DNA of 27,392 nt from a virus, in the IMG/VR virus record IMGVR_UViG_3300000563_000018, positions 1 through 27,392 of that record; one strand, 5' to 3'. Of this stretch, positions 1-22,837 are shown one piece after another. Each line of letters opens with the position of its first letter. Positions within the stretch are counted from its first letter, which is position 1. A program made the position numbers and the translations under genes. The notes under the pieces were generated by a model. It did not search any database and had not been told where the DNA came from. It worked only from the letters and a program-made list of their open reading frames with translations.

Positions 1-183
1 CAATCTATAGGAAGATGCATGCGGAAAAACAAAAATAAAGAATTTGCATATTATTTTGATTTTTGTGATCGTGGAATTAAATATTTTGAATCTGCATCTA
101 AACAAAGACAACAGATTTTAAAAGAATTTGGGCACGAAATTATAATAAAAAAAGAAAATGAGGTAGAACAAAATGATTTATAA
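1..183 (+). CDS. SF2 helicase, C-terminal end (5' partial)
   Basis: The reading frame is open from the first base to a TAA stop at 181-183, giving the last 60 residues of a protein that starts outside the window. It opens with QSIGRCMR, which matches motif VI (QxxGRxxR) of superfamily 2 helicases; the arginines of this motif contact ATP during hydrolysis. The tail that follows (FDFCDRGIKYFESASKQR) has the form seen after motif VI in phage T4 UvsW-type helicases, which remodel branched DNA and recombination intermediates. UvsW-like is therefore a reasonable guess but rests on one motif. The gene overlaps the next one by 11 bases, so they are in one operon. Family is fairly sure; subfamily is not. 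Confidence 0.75.
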   Translation, partial: QSIGRCMRKNKNKEFAYYFDFCDRGIKYFESASKQRQQILKEFGHEIIIKKENEVEQNDL

Positions 184-802
184 AGATATAATAGAAGAAC
201 AAAGTATAGAAGGAATAGAAAGAGAATTTAATGAAATAAATGAAAGATTAATAAAAAAAATAAATGATTTATTAATAAACAATAAAAATATGATATTAAT
301 CATAGAAGGTTGTGATGGAGTTGGAAAGGGATATCTAATAGAAAAATTATCAAAAAAACTACACAATTCATTAATTATGAAAAATTTAGATAGACCAATA
401 GATGGTTCTATTACAGAAAGAACAAAGATAAAAGAAAGATATATTTCAATGTTAAGTTGTTTAAATTTATTTGATAATATATATTTTATTTTTGATAGAT
501 ATCATGCATCAGAAATGATATATGGATTTAAGAGAGGATATGAAGCTAAAGATGATATTTTTTTTAAAAAATTAGAAGAAAAAATAAAAAAATATCCTCA
601 TTTATTAATTTTAATAGATCGAAATGAAGATGAAATAAAAGATGTTTTTAGAAATAGAGGAGATGATTTTATAAATGAAAGTGAAATAGAAGATATAAGA
701 AAAAGATATTATGATTTTTATAATCATTCTATTTTAAATAAAATTATAATTAATAGTTCAGAATTGGACAAATTAATAAAAAAAATAAAAGAGGTTGAAT
801 AG
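173..802 (+). CDS. Deoxynucleoside monophosphate (thymidylate-like) kinase
   Basis: This 209-residue protein has a P-loop GCDGVGKG at residues 46-53, close to the GxDGxGKS/T of thymidylate kinases, and a FDRYHASE segment at 107-114 that matches the DR[YFH] motif of that family. It should transfer phosphate from ATP to a dNMP in the cytoplasm, the step between dNMP production and polymerase substrate. About 40 extra residues precede the P-loop. The P-loop ends KGY where KST or KTT is usual, so it departs from cellular Tmk. The start has GAGG nine bases upstream and lies inside the end of the helicase gene. Because the next genes are a dUTPase/dCTPase and a thymidylate-synthase-like enzyme, its substrate could be dTMP or a modified dCMP; the sequence does not decide. 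Confidence 0.78.
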   Translation: MIYKDIIEEQSIEGIEREFNEINERLIKKINDLLINNKNMILIIEGCDGVGKGYLIEKLSKKLHNSLIMKNLDRPIDGSITERTKIKERYISMLSCLNLFDNIYFIFDRYHASEMIYGFKRGYEAKDDIFFKKLEEKIKKYPHLLILIDRNEDEIKDVFRNRGDDFINESEIEDIRKRYYDFYNHSILNKIIINSSELDKLIKKIKEVE

Positions 803-804
803 AT

Positions 805-1461
805 ATGGTAAATATAAATGAAATGAAAGATGTTGGAGAAGTTCCCAAGAATATTTTAGAAGCTATGTTCAATAAACAATATGAATTAGCTATGAAATAT
901 GTAGATATAGAAAAAATGGGAGATTTATTTGAAAAGACAAAAACAAATCTAGATACTCTTGAAGGTCAAATATGGCTTAAAGATTTTATATATAGAACAA
1001 TAGAAGAAGTTGGTGAATCTTTTGAAATAATATATATAAACAAAGATTGGTCTAAAGTATCAGATATTGATAAATTACATTATTCAGAAGAATTAATAGA
1101 TGCATTACATTTTTATATGGAATTATGTTTAATTGCAGGTTATAATTCAAGTGATTTTAAACAACTTAATGAATATGGACAAATAACAGGAATAGAAACA
1201 TCTCTTGAATATATATATTTTAAAATTAGACATTGGAATATTGTTCAATATTTAACTTTAGCAGGAAACAAATTAAGAAATAAAAAATGGAAACAAACAC
1301 AAGTATTAACAGATAGAAATATATTTTTTGAATATCTAGAAAAAGCACTTGATGAATTAATTAGAGCTTTAAGAAGTGTTGGATTAACAGATGAAGATAT
1401 TTATAACATGTATTTTAAAAAGAATCAGGTAAATAAATTTAGACAAAGAAGTAAATATTAG
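805..1461 (+). CDS. All-alpha dimeric dUTPase / dCTPase family protein
   Basis: A 218-residue helical protein of the dUTPase_2 (MazG-related) family. The metal-binding acids show as EEVGE (residues 67-71) and EELID (95-99), and the C-terminus carries YFKKNQVNKFRQRSKY (203-218), matching the YxxKNxxNxxRQxxGY nucleotide-binding signature, with Gly replaced by Lys near the end. Members hydrolyse dUTP and dUDP, or in T4 gp56 dCTP and dUTP, to the monophosphate and pyrophosphate. This keeps uracil, or plain cytosine, out of viral DNA and feeds dUMP or dCMP to the next enzyme. About 80 residues between the EELID helix and the C-terminal motif form an extended insert. The GAGG upstream lies within the end of the kinase gene, so the two are coupled. 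The choice between dUTP and dCTP is open. Confidence 0.85.
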   Translation: MVNINEMKDVGEVPKNILEAMFNKQYELAMKYVDIEKMGDLFEKTKTNLDTLEGQIWLKDFIYRTIEEVGESFEIIYINKDWSKVSDIDKLHYSEELIDALHFYMELCLIAGYNSSDFKQLNEYGQITGIETSLEYIYFKIRHWNIVQYLTLAGNKLRNKKWKQTQVLTDRNIFFEYLEKALDELIRALRSVGLTDEDIYNMYFKKNQVNKFRQRSKY

Positions 1462-1472
1462 GAGGAATTTAA

Positions 1473-2177
1473 ATGAGAATATATAAAAATTGTAAGGAAG
1501 CTATTAGTGAAATAGAAAGAGATTTATTTGAAATGGGAATTGAAGCCCATAGTAAATCTATGCAGAATAAAATTGTAGAAGATGACGAAGGATATAAAAC
1601 AAAAGAACTACAAGGATATTCTTTTACAATATTAAATTCTGAAGATAAAGATGAAATGGTTGGAGAATGTTTAAATTGGTGTAATTCTGAATTTAAAGAA
1701 AGAATTGCTGGATGGAATAATCCTAAAGAACATATATCTCTTAATCCAGGAGAAGCATATAAACTTAGAGAGAATGTTTGGAATGAATTTTTAGTAAATG
1801 GAAAATTTGAATATACATATAATGAAAGAATGTATTGGCAAATAAACGTTTTAATCGAAGAATTAAAAAGAAATCCAGAATCTAGACAAACAATAATTCA
1901 ATTTCATGATAGAAATATTGACCAAGATAGAATGGGAGGAAAAGCACGTGTACCATGTTCTATGTTTTATCAGTTGATGATAAGAGAAGGTAAACTTGAT
2001 ATTGTTTATATTATGAGAAGTACAGATTTTTATACACATTTTAAAAATGATATATGGCATGCAATTACATTTAGAGATTGGATTTCAAAGCAAATAAATG
2101 TTCCAGTAGGAAAATATATTATGTTTGCTTCTAGTTTACATGCATATAAAAAGGATTTTCCAGAGGGTGTGTATTAA
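1473..2177 (+). CDS. Thymidylate synthase-fold pyrimidine methylase or hydroxymethylase (dCMP hydroxymethylase candidate)
   Basis: The 234-residue protein has the ThyA core: the nucleophile Cys162 in RVPCSMFYQ, the phosphate-binding Arg in NPESRQTI (135-142), RSTD (182-185) and SSLHAY (220-225). These enzymes methylate or hydroxymethylate C5 of dUMP or dCMP using methylene-tetrahydrofolate. The residue equivalent to E. coli TS Asn177, counted 11 residues after the Arg of RSxD, is Asp193, in FKNDIWHA. In T4 dCMP hydroxymethylase the same position is Asp in a similar FRND segment, and Asp there favours cytosine over uracil. I therefore lean towards dCMP hydroxymethylase, but only specificity residues support it. 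A strong AGGAGG site precedes the ATG. It lies between a dUTPase/dCTPase gene and a small unknown gene. Confidence 0.82.
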   Translation: MRIYKNCKEAISEIERDLFEMGIEAHSKSMQNKIVEDDEGYKTKELQGYSFTILNSEDKDEMVGECLNWCNSEFKERIAGWNNPKEHISLNPGEAYKLRENVWNEFLVNGKFEYTYNERMYWQINVLIEELKRNPESRQTIIQFHDRNIDQDRMGGKARVPCSMFYQLMIREGKLDIVYIMRSTDFYTHFKNDIWHAITFRDWISKQINVPVGKYIMFASSLHAYKKDFPEGVY

Positions 2178-2402
2178 ATGCAATTTACACAAAAAAAAGA
2201 TATAAAAAAATTAAATGTTTGGTCTCCAATTTTAGAAGCAAAAATTGCAATATTTTGTTATGAAAATTATGAAGGAGAAAAAGAAATTATAAAAGAAATA
2301 AACGAAATGAATTATAAAATATTAAGAAAAAACAAAACAAAAACAAACAAAAGCTTATATACAGCAACACCATTACAAAGATTGTTAATAAATAAAAAAT
2401 GA
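2178..2402 (+). CDS. Hypothetical protein, 74 residues
   Basis: The ATG follows the stop of the thymidylate-synthase-like gene directly, with GAGGG upstream inside that gene, so translation is probably coupled. The product is Lys-rich, with one hydrophobic strand or helix (ILEAKIAIFCYENY, about residues 18-31) and a charged tail. No family is recognised and no signal peptide or clear membrane segment is seen. Its place between a nucleotide-modifying enzyme and a methyltransferase suggests a role in the same module, but this is only context. Confidence 0.6.
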   Translation: MQFTQKKDIKKLNVWSPILEAKIAIFCYENYEGEKEIIKEINEMNYKILRKNKTKTNKSLYTATPLQRLLINKK

Positions 2403-2408
2403 TTTTGA

Positions 2409-3272
2409 ATGAATGAAATAAATGAAAAAATAAATGTTGAATATTCTAATAAATTTCCAGATGATTATCATACAGATGTTTTAGAAGAATATTATAAAGG
2501 AGAATTGAAAAGAAAAGATGGGACATATTATAAACAAATAGAAAGAAAAAAATATTATACTACAAAAGAGAAACATTTATGTCCTGGTCATTGGCAAGGA
2601 TATAGGTTTGTTATTCAGAATTATTCTCCAAAAAATGGAAATGTTTTCGATCCATGCTTAGGTTCAGGAACTACAATTGTTGAATCTATAAATAATAATA
2701 GAAATGGATATGGAATAGAATTGGAATATTCTCACATTGCAAAAAAGAATGTAGAAGATCAGAATTCAAAAATGAAATATAAAATATATGATGGAGATAT
2801 GAGAAATATAAATGAAATTATTTTAGAAGATATATCATTTGATTTAATAGTTACTGGAACTCCATATATGGGAGTTTCTGATTCTCCACAAAGACCCAAT
2901 ACAAACTTAAAAAATAAATTTAATCACGAAAGAAGTTTTTATTATAATAAAGAATTACCTAATTTTGCATGGTTATCAGAAAAAGAATATTATAAAGAAA
3001 TAAAAAAAACATATGAAAAAATATTAAAATATTTAAAAAAGAATGGATATTTTTCAATTATAATAAAAGATACAATGAAAAATAAAAAACCATATTTATT
3101 ACATTATAATTTAACAAATGAAATTTTAAAAATTCCTGGAATTAAATTAGATAGTATTTATTTACATAAACATTTACCAAAAACACTATTTATGAATACT
3201 TATCCTAAACGATATCCAGGTATAAAAATTCCATTATATCAAACAATTGTAATATTTAAAAAGGTGAAATAA
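2409..3272 (+). CDS. DNA methyltransferase-like protein (N4/N6 amino type)
   Basis: This 287-residue protein binds S-adenosylmethionine. Motif I is DPCLGSGTT at residues 81-89, preceded by a helix as in the usual LDPFxGSGTT of amino-methyltransferases, and GIELEYSHI (102-110) is the following motif II strand. Motif IV appears as TGTPYMG at 149-155, where the usual form is [DNS]PP[YFW]; here the first two positions are Gly-Thr. The motif I before motif IV order and the single compact domain without a large recognition domain are notable. It could modify viral DNA, for example against host restriction. A tRNA guanine methyltransferase is an alternative but less likely from context. No good ribosome site precedes the ATG; the previous gene ends 6 bases upstream. 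Confidence 0.72.
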   Translation: MNEINEKINVEYSNKFPDDYHTDVLEEYYKGELKRKDGTYYKQIERKKYYTTKEKHLCPGHWQGYRFVIQNYSPKNGNVFDPCLGSGTTIVESINNNRNGYGIELEYSHIAKKNVEDQNSKMKYKIYDGDMRNINEIILEDISFDLIVTGTPYMGVSDSPQRPNTNLKNKFNHERSFYYNKELPNFAWLSEKEYYKEIKKTYEKILKYLKKNGYFSIIIKDTMKNKKPYLLHYNLTNEILKIPGIKLDSIYLHKHLPKTLFMNTYPKRYPGIKIPLYQTIVIFKKVK

Positions 3273-3276
3273 TAAT

Positions 3277-4782
3277 ATGTGTGGAATCTGGGGAATAACA
3301 ACAGGATATGAATATAAAAAAGCTATATTTGCAGAAAAACAACTCAAAAATAGAGGTCCTGATTATTCAGGTTTTTATTTTGATGATAATATATCCCTAG
3401 TTCATACAAGATTATCAATTATAGATTTATCAGAAAAATCAAATCAACCATTTAAAAGTTCAAAAACAATTATATCTTTTAACGGAGAAATTTATAACTA
3501 TAAAAAAATAAAAAAAGAACTAATAAATAAACACAAATATAAATTCAAAACAACAGGAGATACAGAAGTTATAGTTGCTTTATATGAAACACTTGGAATT
3601 GATGGGTTTAAAAAATTAAATGGAATGTTTGCATTTATTATTTATGATAAATTAAAAAATAAAACATATTTTCTAAGAGATCCAACAGGAATAAAACCAC
3701 TATATTACTATAAACATAAACATGGTATTATAGAAGCATCTAGTTTGATGAGTGCAATGTCTATTAAAAAAGAGACCAATTTAGATGCATTAAATGAGTT
3801 GTTATCTCTAGGGTATTCAAGAGTTTCTTTATATAAAAATTATGAAGAATTTGAACCAGGAATAATATATGATGAAAATTTAAAAAAAACGAAAATAAAA
3901 TTTATAACTACAAAAAAAACATTCAAAAAAAGTATAATAGAACATTTTTTAACATCTGATGTTCCTGTTGGAATTACATTAAGTGGAGGAATTGATTCCT
4001 CTTATATTACTTATATTTGTTCTAAGATAAAAAGGATTCATACATTTACAATAGGATTTGATAAAAACGAACCCGATATAATAGCCTCTAGAAATTTAGC
4101 AAAAAAACTTAAAACTATACATCATGAAATAATATTAAATAAACAAAAAGCTTTAAAAGAATATAAAAAAGCTATTGATATATTAGAAATCCCAATGGAT
4201 ATGGGAAGTACTTTACAGACTTATTTATTAGGTCGAGAGATTAAAAAATTTGGTATTAAGGTTATTTTAATTGGAGAAGGTTCTGATGAAATAAATGGTG
4301 GATATAGGAGACACCAAGAAGTATTATTTAAAGAATTTAATAAAAATCCATTAAAATTTTACAAAAATAGAATAATTAAATTCAACAAAAAAAATAGAAA
4401 TGAAATATTAAATCATAATTTTAAAAAAGATATTAATATTAATTTAAATAAAAAGTTGGGTTTAAATGCAATATTAGATTGGGATTTAAATAATGAAATT
4501 AGATTTTATCATCTAAAACGTATAGACCATATAATAAGTAATTTTGGAATAGAGGCTAGAGTTCCATATCTTGATTATAGTTGTATTAAAAGTTGTATGG
4601 AAATGGATTATTTAAAAAAAGTTAAGTTAAATAGAAACAAAATAATTTTAAGAAATGAAGCTAAAAAAGAAGGATTATTTAATGAATATGTTGAAATGCC
4701 AAAAAGACCTTTAAAAATATTTAAAGATATGAGGGATATAATTGAAAAAAATGTGAGGAGTTTTTTATATGAAAAAAAATAA
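3277..4782 (+). CDS. Glutamine-hydrolysing asparagine synthetase-like amidotransferase
   Basis: The 501-residue protein starts MCGIWGI, so Cys2 becomes the N-terminal glutaminase nucleophile after Met removal; this also fixes the start, which has AAGGTG upstream. RGPDYSG, NGEIYNY and TGDTE complete the class II glutaminase domain (about 1-190). The synthetase domain has the pyrophosphatase loop SGGIDSS (236-242), GEGSDE (333-338) and EARVPYLD. The family moves ammonia from glutamine onto an adenylated carboxylate, normally aspartate. All key residues seem present, so it should be active, though it is about 50 residues shorter than E. coli AsnB. It sits between a DNA methyltransferase and a dCMP deaminase and overlaps the latter by 14 bases. 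A role in building an amide-bearing modified base or surface group is possible but unproven. Confidence 0.9.
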   Translation: MCGIWGITTGYEYKKAIFAEKQLKNRGPDYSGFYFDDNISLVHTRLSIIDLSEKSNQPFKSSKTIISFNGEIYNYKKIKKELINKHKYKFKTTGDTEVIVALYETLGIDGFKKLNGMFAFIIYDKLKNKTYFLRDPTGIKPLYYYKHKHGIIEASSLMSAMSIKKETNLDALNELLSLGYSRVSLYKNYEEFEPGIIYDENLKKTKIKFITTKKTFKKSIIEHFLTSDVPVGITLSGGIDSSYITYICSKIKRIHTFTIGFDKNEPDIIASRNLAKKLKTIHHEIILNKQKALKEYKKAIDILEIPMDMGSTLQTYLLGREIKKFGIKVILIGEGSDEINGGYRRHQEVLFKEFNKNPLKFYKNRIIKFNKKNRNEILNHNFKKDININLNKKLGLNAILDWDLNNEIRFYHLKRIDHIISNFGIEARVPYLDYSCIKSCMEMDYLKKVKLNRNKIILRNEAKKEGLFNEYVEMPKRPLKIFKDMRDIIEKNVRSFLYEKK

Positions 4783-5200
4783 AATTGAATATTTTAAATC
4801 TATTGCTTTAAGAACAGCAGATTTAAGTACTTGTGTTAGTAAACACGTTGGAACCATTTTGGTTAAGGATTTACGAATTGTTGGAATGGGATACAATGGA
4901 ACATTACCAGGAAAAAAACACTGTAATAAAATCTTTAAAAAACAATTTGATAGAGAAAAACACCACGAATGGAGTTTATATAATGAATTACATGCTGAAC
5001 AAAATATGTTGAGTTTTTGTGCAAAAAATGGAATACCAACAAAGGATACAAGTTTATTTGTAACAATATCACCATGTATTAATTGTGCGAAGATTATAAT
5101 TGCTTCCGGAATAAAAAATGTTTATTATATTGAAAAATATGATAAAGAATGTGGATTGGATCTATTGAAAAAAAGTAAAATAAAATGTTATAAAATTTGA
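4769..5200 (+). CDS. dCMP deaminase
   Basis: A 143-residue zinc enzyme with the cytidine/deoxycytidylate deaminase signature: HAE at residues 75-77 (His75 zinc ligand, Glu77 proton shuttle) and SPCINC at 101-106 (Cys103 and Cys106 zinc ligands). It converts dCMP to dUMP, the substrate of thymidylate synthase, and so balances dCTP and dTTP. The length matches phage and ComEB-type dCMP deaminases. The start has GAGGAG nine bases upstream and lies 14 bases inside the end of the asparagine synthetase-like gene. It joins the kinase, dUTPase/dCTPase and TS-like genes in the nucleotide module. If the TS-like enzyme really uses dCMP, the two enzymes would compete for the same substrate. Confidence 0.92.
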   Translation: MKKNKIEYFKSIALRTADLSTCVSKHVGTILVKDLRIVGMGYNGTLPGKKHCNKIFKKQFDREKHHEWSLYNELHAEQNMLSFCAKNGIPTKDTSLFVTISPCINCAKIIIASGIKNVYYIEKYDKECGLDLLKKSKIKCYKI

Positions 5201-5205
5201 TTGTA

Positions 5206-7074
5206 ATGAAAGAATTAGAAAATCAAAAAATTTTAATATATGATATAGAAACAGCTTCTGTAGAAGAAAAAGCAAACCCCTATAAAGATAAACTAAGATT
5301 TTTTGGATGCTATTCATATTATACAAATGAATATTATTATCTAACAAAGATAGATGATATAAAGAAAATAATTAATATTCATGATTATCTTGTTGGATTT
5401 AATACTTTAAAATATGATAATATAGTTTTATTTAATAATGGATTTTCTGATATAATTTTCAAGAATGAAAACACAGAGCATTATAAAATGAAATATAAAA
5501 CCAATATTGATTTATATAAAATATTTAAAGATCGATCTACTATTATTAAAACTAAAAAGGGTCTAATGAAAGATTTATTATTATCTTATTCATTAGATTA
5601 TATTACTAAAATGTTAGATTTAGTAGATGATGAGTCAGGAAAGATAAAAGATTTTGATTATAATATATTAAAAAAAGAAACATTTACAAAAGATGAAATG
5701 ATATATATTTTTAAATATTTAAAAAGAGATATAGACATCACAAAAAAACTATATGAATGGTTGGAATCTTATTTTTATGTATTTAAAGATTTTTTATATA
5801 AAAAAGATATAAAAAATAAAAGTTATTTAAATAGTACAACAGCAGTTTTTTCATATAAAGCAATATGTAAAGCATTAGATATTAAAGAGGAATATTCTAA
5901 TATAAAAACACATAGTACATATGGTGGAGGATATGTTAGTTATCCTGCAGCTGAACATTTTGAAGGTGATATATATTGTCTGGACTACAACTCGCTGTAC
6001 CCAAATATAATTGTTCAGTGTAATATATTTTCGAGAAATAAAGAAAATAATGAAGGATGGAATGGTAATAATTTTTTTAAAGTTGAAGGATATTATAATG
6101 ATAAAACACAGGGAAAGATTGAAAAATTAATTAAAAAATGGTATGAAGATAGGATTATTTTCAAAAAAAATAAAGACCCAAAAGAACATACAATAAAAAT
6201 TATATTAAATACTATGTATGGAATTTTGGGGAATGAATCATTTAAAACATTAGCCGATAATGTTTGTGTTGCTGATGTAACAAGATTAGCACGTCAATGG
6301 ATAAAATTAGCAAGAAAAATATTTAAAGATAAAGGATATAAAATTATATATTCAGATACAGATTCTATATATATATTAGATGAATATAATAATAAAGATA
6401 AAATTATAGAAATAAAAGATGAAGTTATAAATATAATAAAATCAAATGTTCCATTTCCATATACTGGTTTTGATATGGGTATAGATGATGAAATATCACA
6501 TATGTGGTTTTTTAAATCTAATAATAAAATAACAATAAAAAAATCAGATGATGAAATGGATGAAGACGATTATATTAATAAACCAAAAGGATTATTAAAA
6601 AAAAATTATATATATTTAACAAAAGATAATAAAATTGTTGTTAAAGATGCTGGTATTAAAAAGAAATCTACAAGTTTAATAGTTAGAAAGATTTTTTGGG
6701 ATTATATGGTTCCAAGAATAAAAGAAGAAAAGAAAATAAAATTTGAAAAAAAATGGTTTGAAGAAATTATAAGTAATTTGTTAAATGAAGATTTATCTTT
6801 AATTTCAAAAAGATATTCAGTAAATAATAAAGTATTTTATAAAAACAATTCACAATTACAATATCAAATTTCAAACAAATATGGAGAGGGAATTCATTTT
6901 TTAATTCCTAATAAAATAATGGGTGTAGGAAAAGGTAAAAAATACTGCACAATAGAAGAGTTTAAAAAAAATAATTTAACAATTAATGATATAGATTTTA
7001 AAAATATTTGGAGAGAACTCGAATTTTTTATTGAAGAAAAAAATAAACAATATAAGTTGTTTGATTTTGTTTAG
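5206..7074 (+). CDS. Family B DNA polymerase
   Basis: The 622-residue protein has both polymerase and proofreading domains. The exonuclease motifs are DIET (13-16), FNTLKYD and YLKRDID (Exo I-III, all with their acidic residues). The polymerase motifs are DYNSLYPNI (A, from residue 260), KIILNTMYG (B, about 331) and YSDTDS (C, 382-387). KKNYIYL is a KxY-type motif further on. It should be the viral replicase. It is shorter than T4 or archaeal PolB (near 800-900 residues). I saw no clear protein-priming insertions but cannot exclude them. The ATG at 5206 lacks a clear ribosome site; a TTG at 5197 would overlap the dCMP deaminase stop by 4 bases and is an alternative start. Codons at 5980-6000 differ sharply from the rest. 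Confidence 0.93.
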   Translation: MKELENQKILIYDIETASVEEKANPYKDKLRFFGCYSYYTNEYYYLTKIDDIKKIINIHDYLVGFNTLKYDNIVLFNNGFSDIIFKNENTEHYKMKYKTNIDLYKIFKDRSTIIKTKKGLMKDLLLSYSLDYITKMLDLVDDESGKIKDFDYNILKKETFTKDEMIYIFKYLKRDIDITKKLYEWLESYFYVFKDFLYKKDIKNKSYLNSTTAVFSYKAICKALDIKEEYSNIKTHSTYGGGYVSYPAAEHFEGDIYCLDYNSLYPNIIVQCNIFSRNKENNEGWNGNNFFKVEGYYNDKTQGKIEKLIKKWYEDRIIFKKNKDPKEHTIKIILNTMYGILGNESFKTLADNVCVADVTRLARQWIKLARKIFKDKGYKIIYSDTDSIYILDEYNNKDKIIEIKDEVINIIKSNVPFPYTGFDMGIDDEISHMWFFKSNNKITIKKSDDEMDEDDYINKPKGLLKKNYIYLTKDNKIVVKDAGIKKKSTSLIVRKIFWDYMVPRIKEEKKIKFEKKWFEEIISNLLNEDLSLISKRYSVNNKVFYKNNSQLQYQISNKYGEGIHFLIPNKIMGVGKGKKYCTIEEFKKNNLTINDIDFKNIWRELEFFIEEKNKQYKLFDFV

Positions 7075-7085
7075 GAGGAATTTAT

Positions 7086-7382
7086 ATGGAACTACAAACA
7101 ATAAATGAGAAGTTGAAAACATATTTCGACTTGAAGAAGGATATAGATAGTTTGACAGAGATTAAAGATGCGATCCGGAAGGAGTTAGAGTCTCATTTGA
7201 AGACCGAGGGAATTGATTCTTTGAAGACTGGATTAGGCACGATATCTTATGTTAAGAAAGAATATGAGAGTTTAGATAAGAATAAGATAAAGGAATTTTT
7301 GGATGAAGAGCAATTGAAGCAAATAATTACATTGAAAGAGAGCGCATATATCAAGATTTCTGAAGCAAAAAAGGTGGAGTGA
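7086..7382 (+). CDS. Hypothetical coiled-coil protein, 98 residues
   Basis: A strong AGGAGG site lies just before the ATG. The product is almost wholly helical and charged. The first half (about residues 5-40) has a heptad-like pattern, and the second (about 48-98) holds GLGTISYVKKEYESLD, a pattern common in small phage early proteins, then more helix. No catalytic motif is seen. Codon use differs from upstream genes: AAG, GAG and TTG are common, and GCG, CGG, ACC and GGC appear, whereas neighbours use almost only AAA, GAA and TTA. That suggests a different origin or higher expression. It lies directly between the polymerase and a tRNA gene. Function unknown; a small DNA-metabolism accessory is a guess. 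Confidence 0.7.
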   Translation: MELQTINEKLKTYFDLKKDIDSLTEIKDAIRKELESHLKTEGIDSLKTGLGTISYVKKEYESLDKNKIKEFLDEEQLKQIITLKESAYIKISEAKKVE

Positions 7383-7391
7383 TATGATTAT

Positions 7392-7465
7392 GGTTGTATG
7401 GCGCAATTGGGAACGCACCACCCTTACAAGGTGGAGGATTGCTGGTTCAAGTCCAGCTACAACCA
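7392..7465 (+). tRNA. tRNA-Val (anticodon UAC)
   Basis: The 74 bases fold as a full cloverleaf. The acceptor stem GGTTGTA (7392-7398) pairs with TACAACC (7458-7464), followed by discriminator A. The anticodon stem CCACC/GGTGG encloses the loop CTTACAA, with anticodon TAC at 7425-7427, reading GUA and probably other Val codons. The T arm is GCTGG/CCAGC with loop TTCAAGT. The D stem is short (GCG/CGC) with a GGG-containing loop. No intron and no encoded CCA are seen, so the CCA must be added after transcription. It sits in the replication operon 9 bases after the 98-residue gene and could support translation of AT-rich viral Val codons. Confidence 0.95.
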
Positions 7466-7489
7466 TATCAAATGTTGGAGGAATAAAAA

Positions 7490-7636
7490 ATGAATAATAA
7501 AATGTTTTGTAGCAAGTGTAAGATTGAGATTAGAAGAGCAGCATTTAATATAGGCAATGATTTTTTCTGTTGTAAAAACTGCTTTGAAAGATTTAAAAAA
7601 ATAAATGAAGAGAAAAACAAAAATAAAAAGGAATAA
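7490..7636 (+). CDS. Small zinc-finger protein, 48 residues
   Basis: A short open frame with GGAGG eight bases before its ATG. The protein holds two Cys pairs, FCSKCK near residues 6-11 and FFCCKNCFERF near 25-35, the spacing of a treble-clef or TRASH/MYM-like zinc finger. A highly basic tail of Lys, Asn and Glu follows. It probably folds around one zinc and may bind nucleic acid or protein. It starts 24 bases after the tRNA and ends one base before the next gene's start, so it belongs to the same operon. Related small CxxC proteins are common in phage early regions, but I cannot name a family. Confidence 0.72.
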   Translation: MNNKMFCSKCKIEIRRAAFNIGNDFFCCKNCFERFKKINEEKNKNKKE

Positions 7637-7637
7637 T

Positions 7638-8096
7638 ATGAAGAAACAACATATTGAAGGTGTTTTATCAAAAAGCCTGAAAAAATACAATAAAGAAAAT
7701 ACACCGATATGGTATCTTAAACTCCATAATAATCCTCTTACACATAAAACAACGCCAGCAGACTTCTTAATACTTACAGAAAACCATAATTATCTAGTTG
7801 AATGTAAAGAAACAAAATCCAAAACCTTTACATTAGATAGAATGACACAAAAAGATGATTTACAACATTTTAAAGATAAATTTAATAAAAACTTTTCATT
7901 GTTATTATTATGTTTTTGGAAAGGCACAATCAAAAAATCAGAAATATATTTGGTTGACATCAATCATTTCTTGAATACTTTAACATTTCTAAAAAAGAAA
8001 TCTATTAATATAAATGATGCGCGTGATTTTTTTAAATGCAATTTATTATATGCAGAAAAAGGCGGAGAAATAAATTTGCGTGGGTGTTTTATATGA
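7638..8096 (+). CDS. RecU-like Holliday junction resolvase (PD-(D/E)XK nuclease)
   Basis: A 152-residue protein. PADFLIL (40-46) and LVECKETKSKTFTL (53-66) supply Asp42, Glu55 and Lys57, the D-ExK metal site of PD-(D/E)XK nucleases. The wording ECKETKSKTFTL followed by a Gln at 71 and DLQHF closely follows RecU (FEAKETKS..FPL, then HQ.xHL). RecU cuts four-way DNA junctions symmetrically, so this would resolve replication or recombination intermediates before packaging. An in-frame ATG upstream at 7605 lies inside the zinc-finger gene; the ATG at 7638 has AAGGA seven bases upstream and is preferred. The protein is shorter than Bacillus RecU (about 200 residues). The next gene overlaps its stop by 4 bases. 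Confidence 0.78.
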   Translation: MKKQHIEGVLSKSLKKYNKENTPIWYLKLHNNPLTHKTTPADFLILTENHNYLVECKETKSKTFTLDRMTQKDDLQHFKDKFNKNFSLLLLCFWKGTIKKSEIYLVDINHFLNTLTFLKKKSININDARDFFKCNLLYAEKGGEINLRGCFI

Positions 8097-8392
8097 TTAA
8101 TATTATTTGTATTTTCGACAAATATGATGAAAGAGCAAACAAGCAGGAAAAAATATTATATGACTTGAAAAAAAACAATATAATAAATGATGTTATAATA
8201 CTTGATAATTTAAGGCAAAAAAATCTTGCAAGTTTTTATATGGCAATATCACAACAAATACCACAAATTATATTTCTTGATAATAAAAATATTATAGAAA
8301 AATATTTTGTATTTTTAACAAAACAACAAATAATTGAAATTATAAACGAAATAAAAAAAGTTAAAAATATTATAGATAACGAATTATATTAA
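8093..8392 (+). CDS. Thioredoxin-fold-like protein lacking the CxxC motif
   Basis: The 99-residue protein starts within an ATGA overlap with the RecU-like stop. An upstream ATG at 8036 is inside that gene and not supported. The layout is strand (NIICIFDKY), helix (ANKQEKILYDLKK), strand (DVIILDN), helix (LASFYMAIS), then QIPQIIFLDNK, and a last helix. This order, with a Pro in the IPQIIF strand where thioredoxins and glutaredoxins place the cis-Pro, suggests a glutaredoxin-like fold. The active-site Cys pair is missing: the expected position reads YDERANK. If the fold is right, it is not a dithiol redox enzyme. It is the last gene of the rightward operon. The fold is an inference from pattern only. 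Confidence 0.55.
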   Translation: MINIICIFDKYDERANKQEKILYDLKKNNIINDVIILDNLRQKNLASFYMAISQQIPQIIFLDNKNIIEKYFVFLTKQQIIEIINEIKKVKNIIDNELY

Positions 8393-16481: not shown

Positions 16482-17351
16482 TCATTCTGTTTTAAGTATA
16501 GAATTCAATATTGATAATTCGTTTGATACAGCTTTCGCATCGCCCACACCCGATCCAGTACCTTGTAAATATACACTATTTTGAACATTATTCACTGTGT
16601 TATCTGTTCTTGTGCCACCACCTTGGTTGCCCATCACTTGATATTCTCGGCCTCCTGCATTAAACCCTACATTCATTGAAAGGTCTTGATTGCCTTTTAT
16701 CAAGTCAACAATTGCTTTAATACCTCTATATATTCCCCATATTGTTACAACTGCTGCGGCAAGCACTATAAATACTGGGTTTGTTGATAGACCCCATAAT
16801 ACTAACCCGAGCCCTACTAACACTCCAATCAATACTTGTATTGGTTTTGGTGCATCTCTAATTGCTTCAACAACCCATGTAAGCATTTGCAATAAATCCA
16901 CAAGAATATTTGTTGTTAAGGTCACAAGTGTTTCAAGCATTGGCGTCATTGCTCTCATTATTTCATTTATCATCATATTAAATTTTCCCCAGAACTCGCC
17001 AAATGCGCCTTGCAATCTAGCAAACGCTGTTGCAATCCCGCCCAAGTTTTGTTGGAATGCTTTGCTTGCAAAAAACAATAAAATACCACCAGCACCAACT
17101 CTACTAATCATTGTTAATGCTTTTAATAATCCACCAGTTTGTATTGTTGTTTGTCTTATGCTTGTTGTAAATGCTGCGAACACATTTTTCCCTTCAGTTC
17201 TTTGTGTTCTATATATTTCTGCGAATGTAGTTTTAACTTTTGTTAATTCTTTTGCTGCATCTTTAGTTTTATTAGTTGCTTTTCCGATACCCGTTATCAT
17301 TGTATCTAGTCCTTTTGCTACAAAGCTAAATACAAAATTTTTACTTCCCAT
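16482..17351 (-). CDS. Tail tape measure protein (short)
   Basis: This 289-residue protein follows the frameshifting tail assembly chaperone and precedes tail-tip genes, the tape measure position. The N-terminal third is helical with Thr, Lys and Ala; residues 89-130 and 160-215 are hydrophobic (ILLFFASKAF, LIGVLVGLGLVLWGL, FIVLAAAVVTIWGIY), as in tape measures that cross the membrane during injection. The C-terminus is Gly- and Asn-rich (GNQGGGTRTDNTVNNVQNSV), another usual feature. Tape measures set tail length. At 289 residues this is far shorter than P2 (815) or most myoviruses, implying a tail of only about 40-45 nm by the usual rule of about 0.15 nm per residue. No other candidate lies nearby. 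Confidence 0.72.
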   Translation of the reverse strand: MGSKNFVFSFVAKGLDTMITGIGKATNKTKDAAKELTKVKTTFAEIYRTQRTEGKNVFAAFTTSIRQTTIQTGGLLKALTMISRVGAGGILLFFASKAFQQNLGGIATAFARLQGAFGEFWGKFNMMINEIMRAMTPMLETLVTLTTNILVDLLQMLTWVVEAIRDAPKPIQVLIGVLVGLGLVLWGLSTNPVFIVLAAAVVTIWGIYRGIKAIVDLIKGNQDLSMNVGFNAGGREYQVMGNQGGGTRTDNTVNNVQNSVYLQGTGSGVGDAKAVSNELSILNSILKTE

Positions 17352-17383
17352 ATCATCACATTATTTTTTCAGTTTTTAAGTTG

Positions 17384-17973
17384 TTAAAACCTTTTCATTC
17401 TTGCTTTTTCTTCTTCTTCTTTTTTTAATTGGTCTTCTTTTTTTATATATGCATACGTTTTCATTATTGTGGACATTTTTTTACTTTCAATTTCATCAGA
17501 TGTTTTATTCATTCTCAAACAAATACTAGAAACAAAAACCTCAAACATATCGCCATCATCAATTTTTGCTTCTATCCTCGTAAAAAACTATCAATATCAT
17601 ATACCAAATTAATTGCGCCTTTCAATCTAAACATATCACTGCTTTTCATCTCGTCCAAATCATCTGATGTAACTTCTGGATATATTATTGCATTTTGAAT
17701 CATTAATTCATCCAATTTTTCCGGCACGGTTTCTCCCTTTGCATTTTTCGATCTATCAATCAAATGTTTTAACTTTCTATAATCCATATCTTCCAAAACA
17801 AAATATTCATATTTTCTTTTTATTTCATTAATCTTTCTCATTTCTATTTTATAATTGCCGTCCGGCAACAATTTTATAAACTTTGGAAATTCAGATATAT
17901 TAACCCCTTCCGGGTTATCTTCATATTTTATATTCTCATTTTCTTTTTCATTCTCGTTTATATTTTCAACCAT
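17384..17973 (-). CDS. Tail assembly chaperone, long form made by -1 frameshift
   Basis: The reading frame following the chaperone ORF has no good start: its first ATG (17548) lies 27 bases from any ribosome site. In the -1 frame it is open through the chaperone's last codons. At the slippery site T TTT TTA the zero-frame codons TTT TTA can shift to TTT TTT, then continue ACG AGG ATA and so on to a TAA at 17384. The fused product has about 196 residues: the 133-residue protein less its last residues, plus about 66 residues rich in Lys and Glu (KKEDQLKKEEEEKARMKRF at the end). This is the G/GT arrangement known in lambda and the E/E+E' of P2, which guides folding of the tape measure next door. 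Confidence 0.78.
17572..17973 (-). CDS. Tail assembly chaperone, short form
   Basis: A 133-residue protein that starts at ATG 17973 with GAGGTG upstream; a GTG at 17982 is in frame but less fitting because the ribosome site lies over it. The first 25 residues are Glu- and Asn-rich and disordered; the rest (FPKFIKLLPDGNYKIEMRK near 27-45, then EDMDYRKLKHLIDRSKNAKG and TSDDLDEMKSSDMFRLKG) has the pattern of XkdN- or gp14-type chaperones that sit after the tail tube gene. These help the tape measure fold and are not in the virion. The stop TAG lies seven bases past the slippery heptamer, as in other viruses of this type. Confidence 0.82.
   Translation of the reverse strand: MVENINENEKENENIKYEDNPEGVNISEFPKFIKLLPDGNYKIEMRKINEIKRKYEYFVLEDMDYRKLKHLIDRSKNAKGETVPEKLDELMIQNAIIYPEVTSDDLDEMKSSDMFRLKGAINLVYDIDSFLRG
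17581..17587 (-). promoter_or_regulatory. Programmed -1 ribosomal frameshift site
   Basis: On the minus strand this reads T TTT TTA, a standard X XXY YYZ heptamer with codons TTT TTA in the zero frame. It lies two codons before the chaperone stop, and the -1 frame stays open for about 66 further codons. Position, phase and missing start of the second frame all fit. No obvious stimulating hairpin was seen downstream. Confidence 0.78.
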
Positions 17974-17978
17974 AGAGT

Positions 17979-18179
17979 TCACCTCTTATTTTTATATTCG
18001 TCATTCCCTTTAAAATAATATTTCTTTATTACAAGATAATTATTCATAAAAGAAATATCGAACGAATAACCGTCATTATGTATCTCTTTCAATTTTTCAA
18101 GCCAATTCCCGGCCAAAAAATCAATAGTGGATATCTCATACACTTCTTTTTGTCTTTCCGTTCTCGCAACTTCTTTCAC
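17979..18179 (-). CDS. Hypothetical protein, 66 residues, between tail tube and chaperone
   Basis: It starts with GTG at 18179, with GGTG eight bases upstream, and its stop lies five bases before the chaperone ATG, so it is probably a real gene in the tail operon. The product is a small mixed helix and strand protein (ISTIDFLAGNWLEKLKEIHNDG, then FDISFMNNYLVIKKYYFKG), with a basic C-terminus. No family is recognised. Small unknown genes at this place in tail operons are common; some aid tail tube or chaperone function. Confidence 0.6.
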   Translation of the reverse strand: MKEVARTERQKEVYEISTIDFLAGNWLEKLKEIHNDGYSFDISFMNNYLVIKKYYFKGNDEYKNKR

Positions 18180-18216: not shown

Positions 18217-18672
18217 TTAATCTGCGAATTTATAACCTGTTGCATTAAATGGTAGATTCTGTGTGGCATAACTATCAACCGTCAAGTTTTGAATGTTTGC
18301 AGAGTTAAATTTTACGCCGTAAATTGTAACATTTCTTTTTGGTGTTTTTGAATTGCTGACTCTCGCTCTTAATGTAAAGCTTGGTTTCAATACAGATTTA
18401 TAACGACCATCTCCTTGCACTGGAAATAATGCTTTTAAAAACGCGTTATTAATCCACGCTCTATCCAAACTACCTTCTATATTAATTTTGCCATCAATTA
18501 TCTCTGCAGGAAAATAACTGCCACCTTCATATGCGACTGTATCATCTGTTGAAAGTGTAACCGATGCTCCTTCTGCACCTGTCAATCTTCCTTTTACCAA
18601 TTCTGTATCTGTTGTTGTTTCGTCCGGCTCTAATAATATATCTATATCTTTCAAATTAATCCTTTGAACCAT
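18217..18672 (-). CDS. Tail tube protein
   Basis: The 151-residue protein follows the sheath gene and has a strong GGAGG site before its ATG. It is rich in beta strands with short loops (LKDIDILLEPDETTTDTEL, VTLSTDDTVAYEGGSYFPAE, NVTIYGVKFNSANIQNL), fitting the beta-sandwich tube fold shared by contractile tails and type VI secretion Hcp. Tube subunits stack in hexameric rings inside the sheath and carry the DNA. The length matches small tube proteins such as PBSX XkdM (about 150). I cannot name a closer family. Its order after sheath and before chaperone is the standard one. Confidence 0.85.
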   Translation of the reverse strand: MVQRINLKDIDILLEPDETTTDTELVKGRLTGAEGASVTLSTDDTVAYEGGSYFPAEIIDGKINIEGSLDRAWINNAFLKALFPVQGDGRYKSVLKPSFTLRARVSNSKTPKRNVTIYGVKFNSANIQNLTVDSYATQNLPFNATGYKFAD

Positions 18673-18719: not shown

Positions 18720-20150
18720 TTAAGCAATTGTGATTACCACATCAATAAAGTTTGTACTATATGCTGGTCTAATATTAATTGCAACATTCACAGTATCTAC
18801 GCTTGGACCTTCTGTCACGATTGTTGGCATATATTCGTTAAGTAAACCTCTATTCTGTGCAATTTCCAAAATACCATCAGTAACCCCCTTCATTCTTTCT
18901 CTTGTAATATCTGAATTTGGTTCTCCCAAATAATCTTGCAATGTGTTTTGTATTGTTGTTTTAATATTATCTACAATTCTCATAATATTAATTTCAAAGA
19001 AAATACTTGTAACGTCTGCAATTCGTGTGACACCTCTTGCATATCTTAATGCATTGCTAATTCGTGATGCAACACACACTCTTGAATTTAATAATTGTTC
19101 AATTTCAACATTATCATAATATTTTTTATCTGTTGTTGAATTGATTATCAAATCATTAACAATTACTTCTTTTCGTGTTGGAGAACCACCATCATCATCC
19201 AGGTCACATATTTTGCCTGCTAATGCACACCCTAAATATGTTCCATCAAGTATTATTTTCGAATCATCAATTCGTGAAGTGTAATATATACTTGGCGCAC
19301 ACAATACAAATCTTTCTCCAACTGTGTTTCTTGCTTGTATTGTTGGAATATTTTCGTCTTGTGAAACACCGGTTACATACATTCCATATTTTTTTAATGT
19401 GTCTGCTCTATAATTAATTTTCGCCAACATTGTTGTATGAAATGCGTCTGTATCTTCAAGAGATAATGTTTGATGTGTATTAGGAATCATTAAAATGTCC
19501 CATTCTTCATTTGCAACAATATTATCAAATGCTGTTGTATAATCTTCTGTAACAATATTATCTGCTCCATCATGTCCATCTTCTAATTGTTCATAACTTG
19601 CAATTGAATCAACCAACTCTGCAGAATTAACATCCATACTAACCAATCTACTTCTAGCATTTATTACATCTGCCATTTCTTGGTTTGAAGTGAAACCATT
19701 TACATCTCCTGCATTATCAAACAATTCTACAATATTACCGATTTTAATCCTGATGATTCGTCCTGTTCCTTGTTCATCAATATCTACCATAATATTATTT
19801 CCATATGTTCCTTTTTGCAATGCTTGAATTTTAATCACATTTGCAGCCCCACCACTGTTTCCAGCAAATTGTTTGGATGCAAACTCAACATCATCATTTG
19901 CGATTCTTAATATTTTTAAAATACTACCGCCATTTGCAAAAAACAATTCTGCTGCTTTAATTATTGTTGTGTTATCATCTTTATCTTCTTTATATTCTTG
20001 CAAAACAGTTGTGAAGTTGCTTGTTGTTATTATTTCATTGATACGGCCATATTGTGCTGTACCAATCATAAACCCAACTGCCTCTCCAACACCAGGTATT
20101 AAACTCACTGCTGTTCTAACATCAATATCAATTCTTGGATTTAATGCCAT
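18720..20150 (-). CDS. Tail sheath protein
   Basis: A 476-residue protein of the contractile tail sheath family. The start RIDIDVRTAVSLIPGVGEAVGF and the C-terminal third, with ARGVTRIADVTSIFFEINIMR (about 371-391), then TIQNTLQDYLGEPNSDITRE and the closing strand TVNVAINIRPAYSTNFIDVVI, match the conserved sheath core. YMPTIVTEGPSVDTVN lies just before that strand. The sheath surrounds the tube and contracts to drive it through the cell envelope. The start has AAGGTG upstream. Its 5' neighbour is a 73-residue acidic/basic protein and its 3' neighbour the tube. The central region (about 90-200) is variable among sheaths. Confidence is high from both sequence and order. Confidence 0.92.
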   Translation of the reverse strand: MALNPRIDIDVRTAVSLIPGVGEAVGFMIGTAQYGRINEIITTSNFTTVLQEYKEDKDDNTTIIKAAELFFANGGSILKILRIANDDVEFASKQFAGNSGGAANVIKIQALQKGTYGNNIMVDIDEQGTGRIIRIKIGNIVELFDNAGDVNGFTSNQEMADVINARSRLVSMDVNSAELVDSIASYEQLEDGHDGADNIVTEDYTTAFDNIVANEEWDILMIPNTHQTLSLEDTDAFHTTMLAKINYRADTLKKYGMYVTGVSQDENIPTIQARNTVGERFVLCAPSIYYTSRIDDSKIILDGTYLGCALAGKICDLDDDGGSPTRKEVIVNDLIINSTTDKKYYDNVEIEQLLNSRVCVASRISNALRYARGVTRIADVTSIFFEINIMRIVDNIKTTIQNTLQDYLGEPNSDITRERMKGVTDGILEIAQNRGLLNEYMPTIVTEGPSVDTVNVAINIRPAYSTNFIDVVITIA

Positions 20151-21191: not shown

Positions 21192-21704
21192 CTATGATAT
21201 TAGTTCTGTTTCTTTCATCAATTCTTTTTTCTTTGTATCAATAATATTATCTATATATTTTTCTGTTTTGTTGCTAAACTCTTTCCACAATTCAGCATTC
21301 ACAAACATTTTATGAATGAAGCGTCTCCCTTCAAATCCAGGATGGTTGACCATTTTTGCAAATATATATCCGTCTTTTTCGAATGCAACATTGCCTGGAA
21401 TCTTTTTATATTTAGACTTTCGTTCTGTTGGTTTTTTGAATCTCAAAAACTTCCTTCTATTAGCCTTGATGATTTGTGGCTCAATACCTTCTTCTTGCAT
21501 CTTTATTTGAAAGAAGTTTGGATTGCTAAATTCGAATATTAAAAATTGCGTGGGTTTCAGTTCCCATTCTGCTGCGACTTGTCTTTTTTCCTGTGTGTTT
21601 GTAGTTTTGTATGTATTCTCGATTAGATATGTTAGGTACACGTCTTCAATCACATCTAGCACCGCGTTATTGATTTGTGATTTCGTAATCTTAATTGTGA
21701 CCAT
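21192..21704 (-). CDS. HK97 gp10-like neck/tail component
   Basis: A 170-residue, Lys-rich helical protein. The segment AKMVNHPGFEGRRFIHKMF (about 126-144) is the conserved PG.x.xRPF/RRFI motif of the HK97 gp10 family (tail completion protein). VAAEWELKPTQFLIFEFSN (about 44-62) forms strands before it. The gene sits in the head-tail joining group, upstream of the sheath genes, in the order found in other tailed phages. An AAGGTATT stretch upstream of the ATG is a weak ribosome site. The protein is longer than typical gp10 (about 130-150). Confidence is moderate, as the motif is short. Confidence 0.62.
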   Translation of the reverse strand: MVTIKITKSQINNAVLDVIEDVYLTYLIENTYKTTNTQEKRQVAAEWELKPTQFLIFEFSNPNFFQIKMQEEGIEPQIIKANRRKFLRFKKPTERKSKYKKIPGNVAFEKDGYIFAKMVNHPGFEGRRFIHKMFVNAELWKEFSNKTEKYIDNIIDTKKKELMKETELIS

Positions 21705-21725
21705 AAATATTAATACCTTTTTTTA

Positions 21726-22127
21726 TTATTCTTGATATGGTGGATGTGAGCTATATTCTAGATTGAATTCTTGAAATATTGTATCTCCATTTTTGATACC
21801 ATCTTTTAGATTGTTAATCTTAAAGTATCTACCATCTATATCAATTAGATCAGATGGTAGTAAATGTACATCATGTTTGATATAACATTGCAGTGCTCCT
21901 TTTGGCATCTCGATTCCTTGTCTGAGTCTTTCTATTGAGTCTGGAGTTCCTTGAATGCTAATCTCTGCAATAATCTTCTCAGTAGATTGGTCTCCAGTCT
22001 CATCAAAAAAATCACCACTGCCGGCGTTTGCATATCTAATAATTGTGCAATCTATTTTTTTGTGCATATTAAATATTTTTTCAAAATCCTTCCTCATCTT
22101 CGCAACAGAAATATCTGGTAAAGTCAT
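21726..22127 (-). CDS. Head-closure (neck) protein candidate
   Basis: The 133-residue protein has mixed helix and strand: an N-terminal helix (DISVAKMRKDFEKIFNMHKK, about 4-23), then strands (CTIIRYANAGSGDFF, EKIIAEISIQGTPDS) and a barrel-like end (LLPSDLIDIDGRYFKINNLKDG, then FQEFNLEYSSHPPY). The LPSDLIDIDGRYFKIN part has the shape of SPP1 gp16-type closure proteins, where a loop around GRxYxI is typical. The ATG at 22127 has AGGTGA upstream, formed by the stop of the previous gene (22133), so it is coupled. The role rests on position between connector and gp10-like genes. Confidence 0.6.
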   Translation of the reverse strand: MTLPDISVAKMRKDFEKIFNMHKKIDCTIIRYANAGSGDFFDETGDQSTEKIIAEISIQGTPDSIERLRQGIEMPKGALQCYIKHDVHLLPSDLIDIDGRYFKINNLKDGIKNGDTIFQEFNLEYSSHPPYQE

Positions 22128-22132
22128 AATAA

Positions 22133-22837
22133 TCACCTAGAAATATATCTCCTTCCACCAGGACTCTCAATGGAATATCCCCATTTCCTGACATCATCTC
22201 TATCAAACCCAAGCTTAGTCTTTTCATAAATAACAGGTCTAATAAATTTAATAATTGTATTCATTTCTTGTTTCAAACTCTCTTTGATCTCGACTAGCGA
22301 ATTAGAATCGAAAGTTACACTCACACCATTCAAATTCCAACTGCTAATTCCATCTTGCAAGTATTTAATTGGAATGTTTGTGAATAAACTATCACATGCC
22401 ATCAATGTGTTTAATCGACGCAAGTATGGTTTCATGACCTCATTATCGAACCTAGCGATCATAAAATCGATGATGAGCTTTTTATTATCTTTTGGATACG
22501 AATCATCCATTGTAATCATACCATACTTTGGAACGAATGTTACAACATTACTCTTTCTATCTGTTTCTGGAGTAACATAATCATCTTTATCAAACTCGTA
22601 TATATTAAAATCATCAACTGTGATTTCACCATCACAATCATAGTCTGCGATGTGTCCTTCTAGTTTGAACTTATCATCCGGCTGCGTAAAGGTATAGCTC
22701 TTTTTATAAAACACGAGATGTTTTATCTTCTGAGCCGTCGCAACTAATGCAGTCTCAATATTATGATCGTCTAACGCGATCCCAGTTGCGTTCTTAAAAT
22801 CCAATACGGTCATAAACGCCATTATTCTAGTCATCAT
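22133..22837 (-). CDS. Head-tail connector-type protein with an EF-hand-like loop
   Basis: A 234-residue protein in the neck group. The middle has DYDCDGEITVDDF at residues 65-77, giving acids at loop positions 1, 3, 5 and 12, Gly at 6 and Ile at 8: a full EF-hand or dockerin-type calcium loop. The C-terminal part (about 100-234) is strand- and helix-mixed with a long helix (VEIKESLKQEMNTIIKF), fitting neck or adaptor proteins. I cannot name the family, so the neck role is from gene order. The ATG has AGGTGA two to three bases upstream. Calcium dependence of neck assembly or stability would be the natural reading of the loop. Confidence 0.6.
   Translation of the reverse strand: MMTRIMAFMTVLDFKNATGIALDDHNIETALVATAQKIKHLVFYKKSYTFTQPDDKFKLEGHIADYDCDGEITVDDFNIYEFDKDDYVTPETDRKSNVVTFVPKYGMITMDDSYPKDNKKLIIDFMIARFDNEVMKPYLRRLNTLMACDSLFTNIPIKYLQDGISSWNLNGVSVTFDSNSLVEIKESLKQEMNTIIKFIRPVIYEKTKLGFDRDDVRKWGYSIESPGGRRYISR

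Follow-up and report, generated by a model that had tools for sequence, protein, structure and literature searches.

The sequence analyzed here (referred to as the window) covers one IMG/VR virus record in full, 27,392 bp with a GC content of 28.6%. Its minus strand carries a contractile-tail module in which genes for the sheath, the tube, a 66-aa ORF, a putative tail assembly chaperone (TAC) and the tape measure follow one another in that order; 3′ of the tape measure gene lie genes for a Dit-like protein, a 557-aa tail protein, a spike-like protein, a sheath initiator/gp25, baseplate J and a further baseplate protein. The features at and around the TAC gene are as follows.

18720 to 20150, minus strand: contractile tail sheath, 476 aa (phrog_23, E 9.9e-13; PF17482 above cut-off)
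18217 to 18672, minus strand: tail tube protein, 151 aa (phrog_365, E 0.002; position after the sheath)
17572 to 17973, minus strand: putative short TAC ORF in the zero frame, 133 aa, gpG-like product (ATG start, phrog_1778 match, family HMM, fold)
17581 to 17587, minus strand: candidate slippery heptamer T TTT TTA, encoding Phe130-Leu131, in phase
17575 to 17580, minus strand: spacer CGAGGA, 6 nt, between the heptamer and the hairpin (fold prediction)
17572 to 17574, minus strand: zero-frame stop TAG of the short product
17527 to 17574, minus strand: predicted stimulatory hairpin with a 14-bp outer stem (17574-17561 with 17540-17527) and a weak 4-bp inner stem, the zero-frame stop lying inside it
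17384 to 17581, minus strand: -1-frame extension, 65 codons from ACG (17581-17579) and then TAA (17386-17384), the predicted C-terminal domain of a 196-aa fusion (open frame, coding signature)
16482 to 17351, minus strand: tape measure protein, 289 aa, presumed client of the chaperone (phrog_305, E 1.1e-5, plus further tape-measure families)

Several observations concern the wider genome. The 66-aa ORF between the tube and TAC genes (18179-17979, minus strand) starts with GTG, has no family matches and ends 5 nt before the TAC start. A plus-strand module (173-8392) encodes thymidylate kinase-like, dUTPase, thymidylate synthase/dCMP hydroxymethylase-like and DNA methylase proteins, a putative asparagine synthetase, deaminase-like and Holliday junction resolvase-like proteins and a family B DNA polymerase that is very divergent; it also contains a tRNA-Val (7391-7466). 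Upstream of the presumed head-tail genes, the minus strand from 27322 to 21192 holds a repetitive WSDDG-type protein and glycosyltransferase-like, methyltransferase-like and kinase-like ORFs; three ORFs within it (21192-22837) had no good match to a PHROG family. Many gene starts are preceded by GGTGA or GTGAT and not by AGGAGG, and stop codon usage at this GC content is TGA 13, TAA 13 and TAG 8; the host would be bacterial or archaeal. Tail length usually follows a rule of 0.15 nm per tape measure residue, by which the 289-aa tape measure protein predicts a very short contractile tail of ∼43 nm.

The short ORF begins at an ATG with an SD-like AGAGGTGA upstream. Its product matched phrog_1778 (E 1.5e-4; E 9.9e-7 in a search of the whole record, in which ORF 17973-17572 was the sole match), and an HMM of the family, representing 17 distinct relatives, scored it at 27.9 bits, compared with 11.2 bits for the best of 5,000 shuffles and 4.0 bits for the next best six-frame segment of the window. 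An AlphaFold2 model of the short protein was built from an 18-sequence alignment (mean pLDDT 62; 77 to 93 over residues 61-100), and its best fold match was Bacillus subtilis YqbN (PDB 3klu; Z 9.5, rmsd 2.2 over 81 residues, 10% identity), an XkdN-type TAC of the Pfam family Phage_TAC_5. Further matches were to 5ir0 (Z 6.9), 3fgx (Z 6.1) and the HK97 tail assembly chaperone 2ob9 (Z 5.1), with unrelated entries at Z 2 to 3, and the named matches of the model in BFVD were mostly “Tail assembly chaperone.” A Pfam search with the short protein gave no match to the Phage_TAC_5 model. The tape measure gene, expected from the first-pass annotation to come next after the chaperone gene, does so (17351-16482, minus strand), and the gene order of this tail module is one that we take to resemble XkdK-U of PBSX. 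Identification of the short protein as a TAC is thus supported by the phrog_1778 match, by the order tube-TAC-tape measure and by a predicted fold like those of YqbN and the HK97 chaperone; the results also indicate that phrog_1778, listed as of unknown function, is a TAC family.

At its end the ORF reads AGT TTT TTA CGA GGA TAG in the zero frame. A heptamer phased for tandem -1 slippage had been placed at 17587-17581 (minus strand), two codons 5′ of the TAG at 17574-17572, and these coordinates proved exact; the -1 frame does run open for 66 codons to the TAA at 17386-17384, and the predicted fusion of ∼196 residues comes out from the sequence at 131 + 65 = 196 aa. Because a -1-frame TAG sits immediately 5′ of the heptamer, the shift would be confined to ∼13 nt, within which T TTT TTA is the sole shift-prone motif. 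In-phase heptamers of the form X XXY YYZ are common in the gene set of this AT-rich genome (143 in total), and one of them taken alone is therefore weak evidence. Their number would suit a reading in which a common heptamer happens to be followed by a fortuitously open -1 frame of no function, as would the lack of any match of the extension to a known family. However, only 4 of the 143 heptamers have a -1 frame extending >60 nt beyond the zero-frame stop, and the other three run into the next gene. The 66-codon run (FTRIEAK...KRF) compares with a maximum of 50 codons among 1,036 -1-frame open runs inside genes, and base composition gives odds of 6e-4 for 66 open codons. Codon usage across the extension scores 0.526 bits per codon, which can be set against a mean of 0.42 (sd 0.13) for genes in their own frame and lies above the scores of genes read in the -1 frame (mean -0.02, sd 0.16, max. 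0.38); by this measure the extension looks coding. An AlphaFold2 model of the extension alone (single sequence) consists of a beta hairpin and a long helix (pLDDT 82), and a Foldseek search with it returned no match. Open-run length and coding signature, together with the hairpin and the family-wide layout described below, in which an overlapping second frame likewise fills the gap between TAC and tape measure genes, make a chance open frame highly improbable.

Downstream of the heptamer, the 57 nt on its 3′ side are predicted to fold at -13.9 kcal/mol (z -3.7; 0 of 200 shuffles equally stable), a length that was picked to end near the stem and for which z falls to only -1.0 at 50 nt and is -3.3 at 70 nt. 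This fold ranks second in stability among those following the 139 in-phase heptamers of the window, and ∼3% of 60-nt stretches on the same strand fold equally well. Its predicted spacing of 6 nt from the heptamer is within the range of about 5 to 9 nt expected for a -1 stimulatory structure. An Rfam scan of positions 17300 to 18000 gave no match. The sequence U UUU UUA is the -1 frameshift site of HIV and is reported to be less shifty than A AAA AAG in Escherichia coli (PMC5009743), so a stimulator would make sense here.

The first-pass annotation had also described the second frame as being without a well-placed start. It held in that a start of its own is unlikely, yet an in-frame ATG is present at 17548, ∼23 nt beyond the stop of the short ORF; it is preceded by TGATG and has an anti-SD energy of -4.5 kcal/mol, near the -5.2 kcal/mol of the tape measure start. 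The -1 frame could then be a separate small gene of ∼54 aa, translated by re-initiation after the TAC stop without any frameshift, and such an arrangement has a counterpart in the annotation of Listeria phage B054, where the second frame is listed as its own gene (gp17, the short protein being gp16). However, about one in three start-type codons picked at random inside genes has an anti-SD energy of -4.5 kcal/mol or better, and ATG 17548 would fall inside the predicted hairpin. Furthermore, the point at which the -1 frame opens coincides with a correctly phased heptamer, and the TAC family repeatedly shows this overlapping layout, for which frameshifting is established in lambda and P2. We therefore regard a separate gene as unlikely, and a frameshift remains the preferred explanation of the second frame.

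To place this site in a wider context, 50 relatives were assembled (6 GenBank phages plus 44 contigs from one IMG/VR scan), many of them near-identical prophages, so that ∼17 are distinct. The GenBank phages with a phrog_1778-type protein between tube and tape measure were D6E, Listeria B054, Lactobacillus LBR48, Paenibacillus Pd_22F, Aeribacillus AP45 and Exiguobacterium vB_EauM-23; most of these six records either lack an annotation of the extension, cover it in part or list it as a gene of its own. Examples of short TAC 3′ ends among the relatives labeled L010 to L058 are 1453-1713 in L013 and 2525-2881 in L010. In each of the 50 relatives the short ORF is overlapped by a second frame, which is +1 (equivalently -2) throughout and continues towards the tape measure gene for 148 to 229 nt beyond the short stop. 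For Pd_22F and L017 the -1 frame is open equally far, but the match to the extensions of the other relatives lies in the +1 frame. A zero-frame TTT followed by C was found in the overlap of 48 of the 50, mostly as TTT CTT and usually 3 to 8 codons before the stop (18 in L051). The exceptions are again Pd_22F and L017, in which a +1-frame stop follows TTT and CCC A is a possible alternative slip site. Phe-Leu at the predicted slip site is invariant across 18 aligned sequences, the window included. These patterns suggest a probable +1 shift in the phrog_1778 relatives at a near-invariant TTT C on one Phe codon.

In the window, the homologous Phe codon is part of TTT TTA with a T before it and reads TTT T, not TTT C; the extension is in -1, and the +1 frame ends 13 nt beyond the short stop. 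The extension is of similar length in the window (65 aa) and in relatives (63 to 78 aa). Homology between the window's extension and the second-frame domain of relatives looked plausible by eye against D6E and failed in an HMM search, in hhalign with shuffles and in a six-frame control; we therefore make no claim to it. A downstream structure comparable to that of the window was absent from most relatives tested, and was present in L056 and L058 at other spacings. No close relative of this virus was recovered from viral contig scans with the fusion, the sheath, the DNA polymerase or window-anchored TAC alignments, from genome contig scans, or by tblastn in phages with the TAC, sheath and baseplate J proteins; viral contig scans with polymerase motifs retrieved remote polymerases only, with no sheath among them.

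As the window is a single copy of an IMG/VR contig without reads and all detected relatives are +1, an error of sequence or assembly, or a real one-base indel, has to be considered in the T run at 17587-17582: seven Ts would give a single 196-aa ORF and five would give the +1 layout of the relatives. Five Ts, however, would leave TTT T without the TTT C found in 48 of the 50 relatives, and seven would remove the short form, unlike in any of the 50. Six Ts are thus the most coherent reading of the run. They also yield a canonical phased heptamer followed at the right spacing by a hairpin, a structure missing from most relatives tested, and the neighboring tail genes read through intact. An artefact or indel in this run is, in our judgment, decidedly unlikely.

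The proposal of a programmed -1 frameshift in the TAC gene, made by the first-pass annotation, is supported at the sequence level by TAC homology and fold, a coding-like -1 frame and a predicted hairpin at the classic spacing. We consider it very probable that one TAC gene with one start gives two products, a 133-aa short form and a 196-aa long form, through a -1 slip on T TTT TTA assisted by the hairpin. Most ribosomes would end at the TAG at 17574-17572 and release the short chaperone, and a minority, slowed at T TTT TTA by the hairpin 6 nt downstream, would slip back one base and so produce the 196-aa form. By analogy with lambda G/GT and from membership of the family, the part common to both forms would coat the tape measure protein encoded by the neighboring gene, and tail tube subunits would be recruited by the rare extension. 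As the second frame is +1 in distant relatives, the direction of the shift apparently differs between them and the window (-1) at a homologous Phe-Leu site. On balance we favor a change of direction within one TAC family, with +1 slippage on UUU-C in Gram-positive relatives and -1 slippage on U UUU UUA ahead of a hairpin in the window, both at one conserved Phe-Leu pair; selection would then maintain the slip position and the two products, and not the direction. That -1 programmed frameshifting occurs in phage TAC genes is well known. What is new is the indicated TAC assignment of phrog_1778, the probable and unusually uniform +1 site of its members and the apparently reversed direction of the shift in this virus, and a putative TAC frameshift is added for a very divergent contractile-tailed virus. 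The occurrence of +1 TTT C across the family and of a candidate -1 site at the homologous codon would make the evolution of frameshift direction testable with simple reporters.

Among known systems, the lambda heptamer is G GGA AAG, and the lambda tail is non-contractile whereas the tail module of the window is contractile. The layout of lambda G/GT is nevertheless like that proposed for the window: the -1 shift occurs close to the 3′ end of the chaperone gene, and the tape measure gene comes next (PMC5009743). In the lambda model, binding to the tape measure is assigned to the part common to both forms and contact with tube subunits to the extension (PMC5009743). TAC frameshifting was measured at 6 to 7% in another study (PMC3711429). 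The phrog_1778 family shares with the window a homologous short protein, its position between tube and tape measure, the Phe-Leu slip site and a second frame of similar length; the two differ in the direction of the second frame and in the TTT C site, and their extensions have no detectable similarity. Phage P2 E/E+E′ resembles the window in its contractile tail, in its place between the tube and tape measure genes and, on the reading proposed here, in a short and a long form from one start. Its -1 slip site, TTTTTTG, is one letter from the TTTTTTA of the window, where the predicted shift is also -1; P2 has no predicted downstream hairpin (PMC3091744), unlike the window, in which a predicted 14-bp outer stem starts 6 nt downstream of the heptamer.
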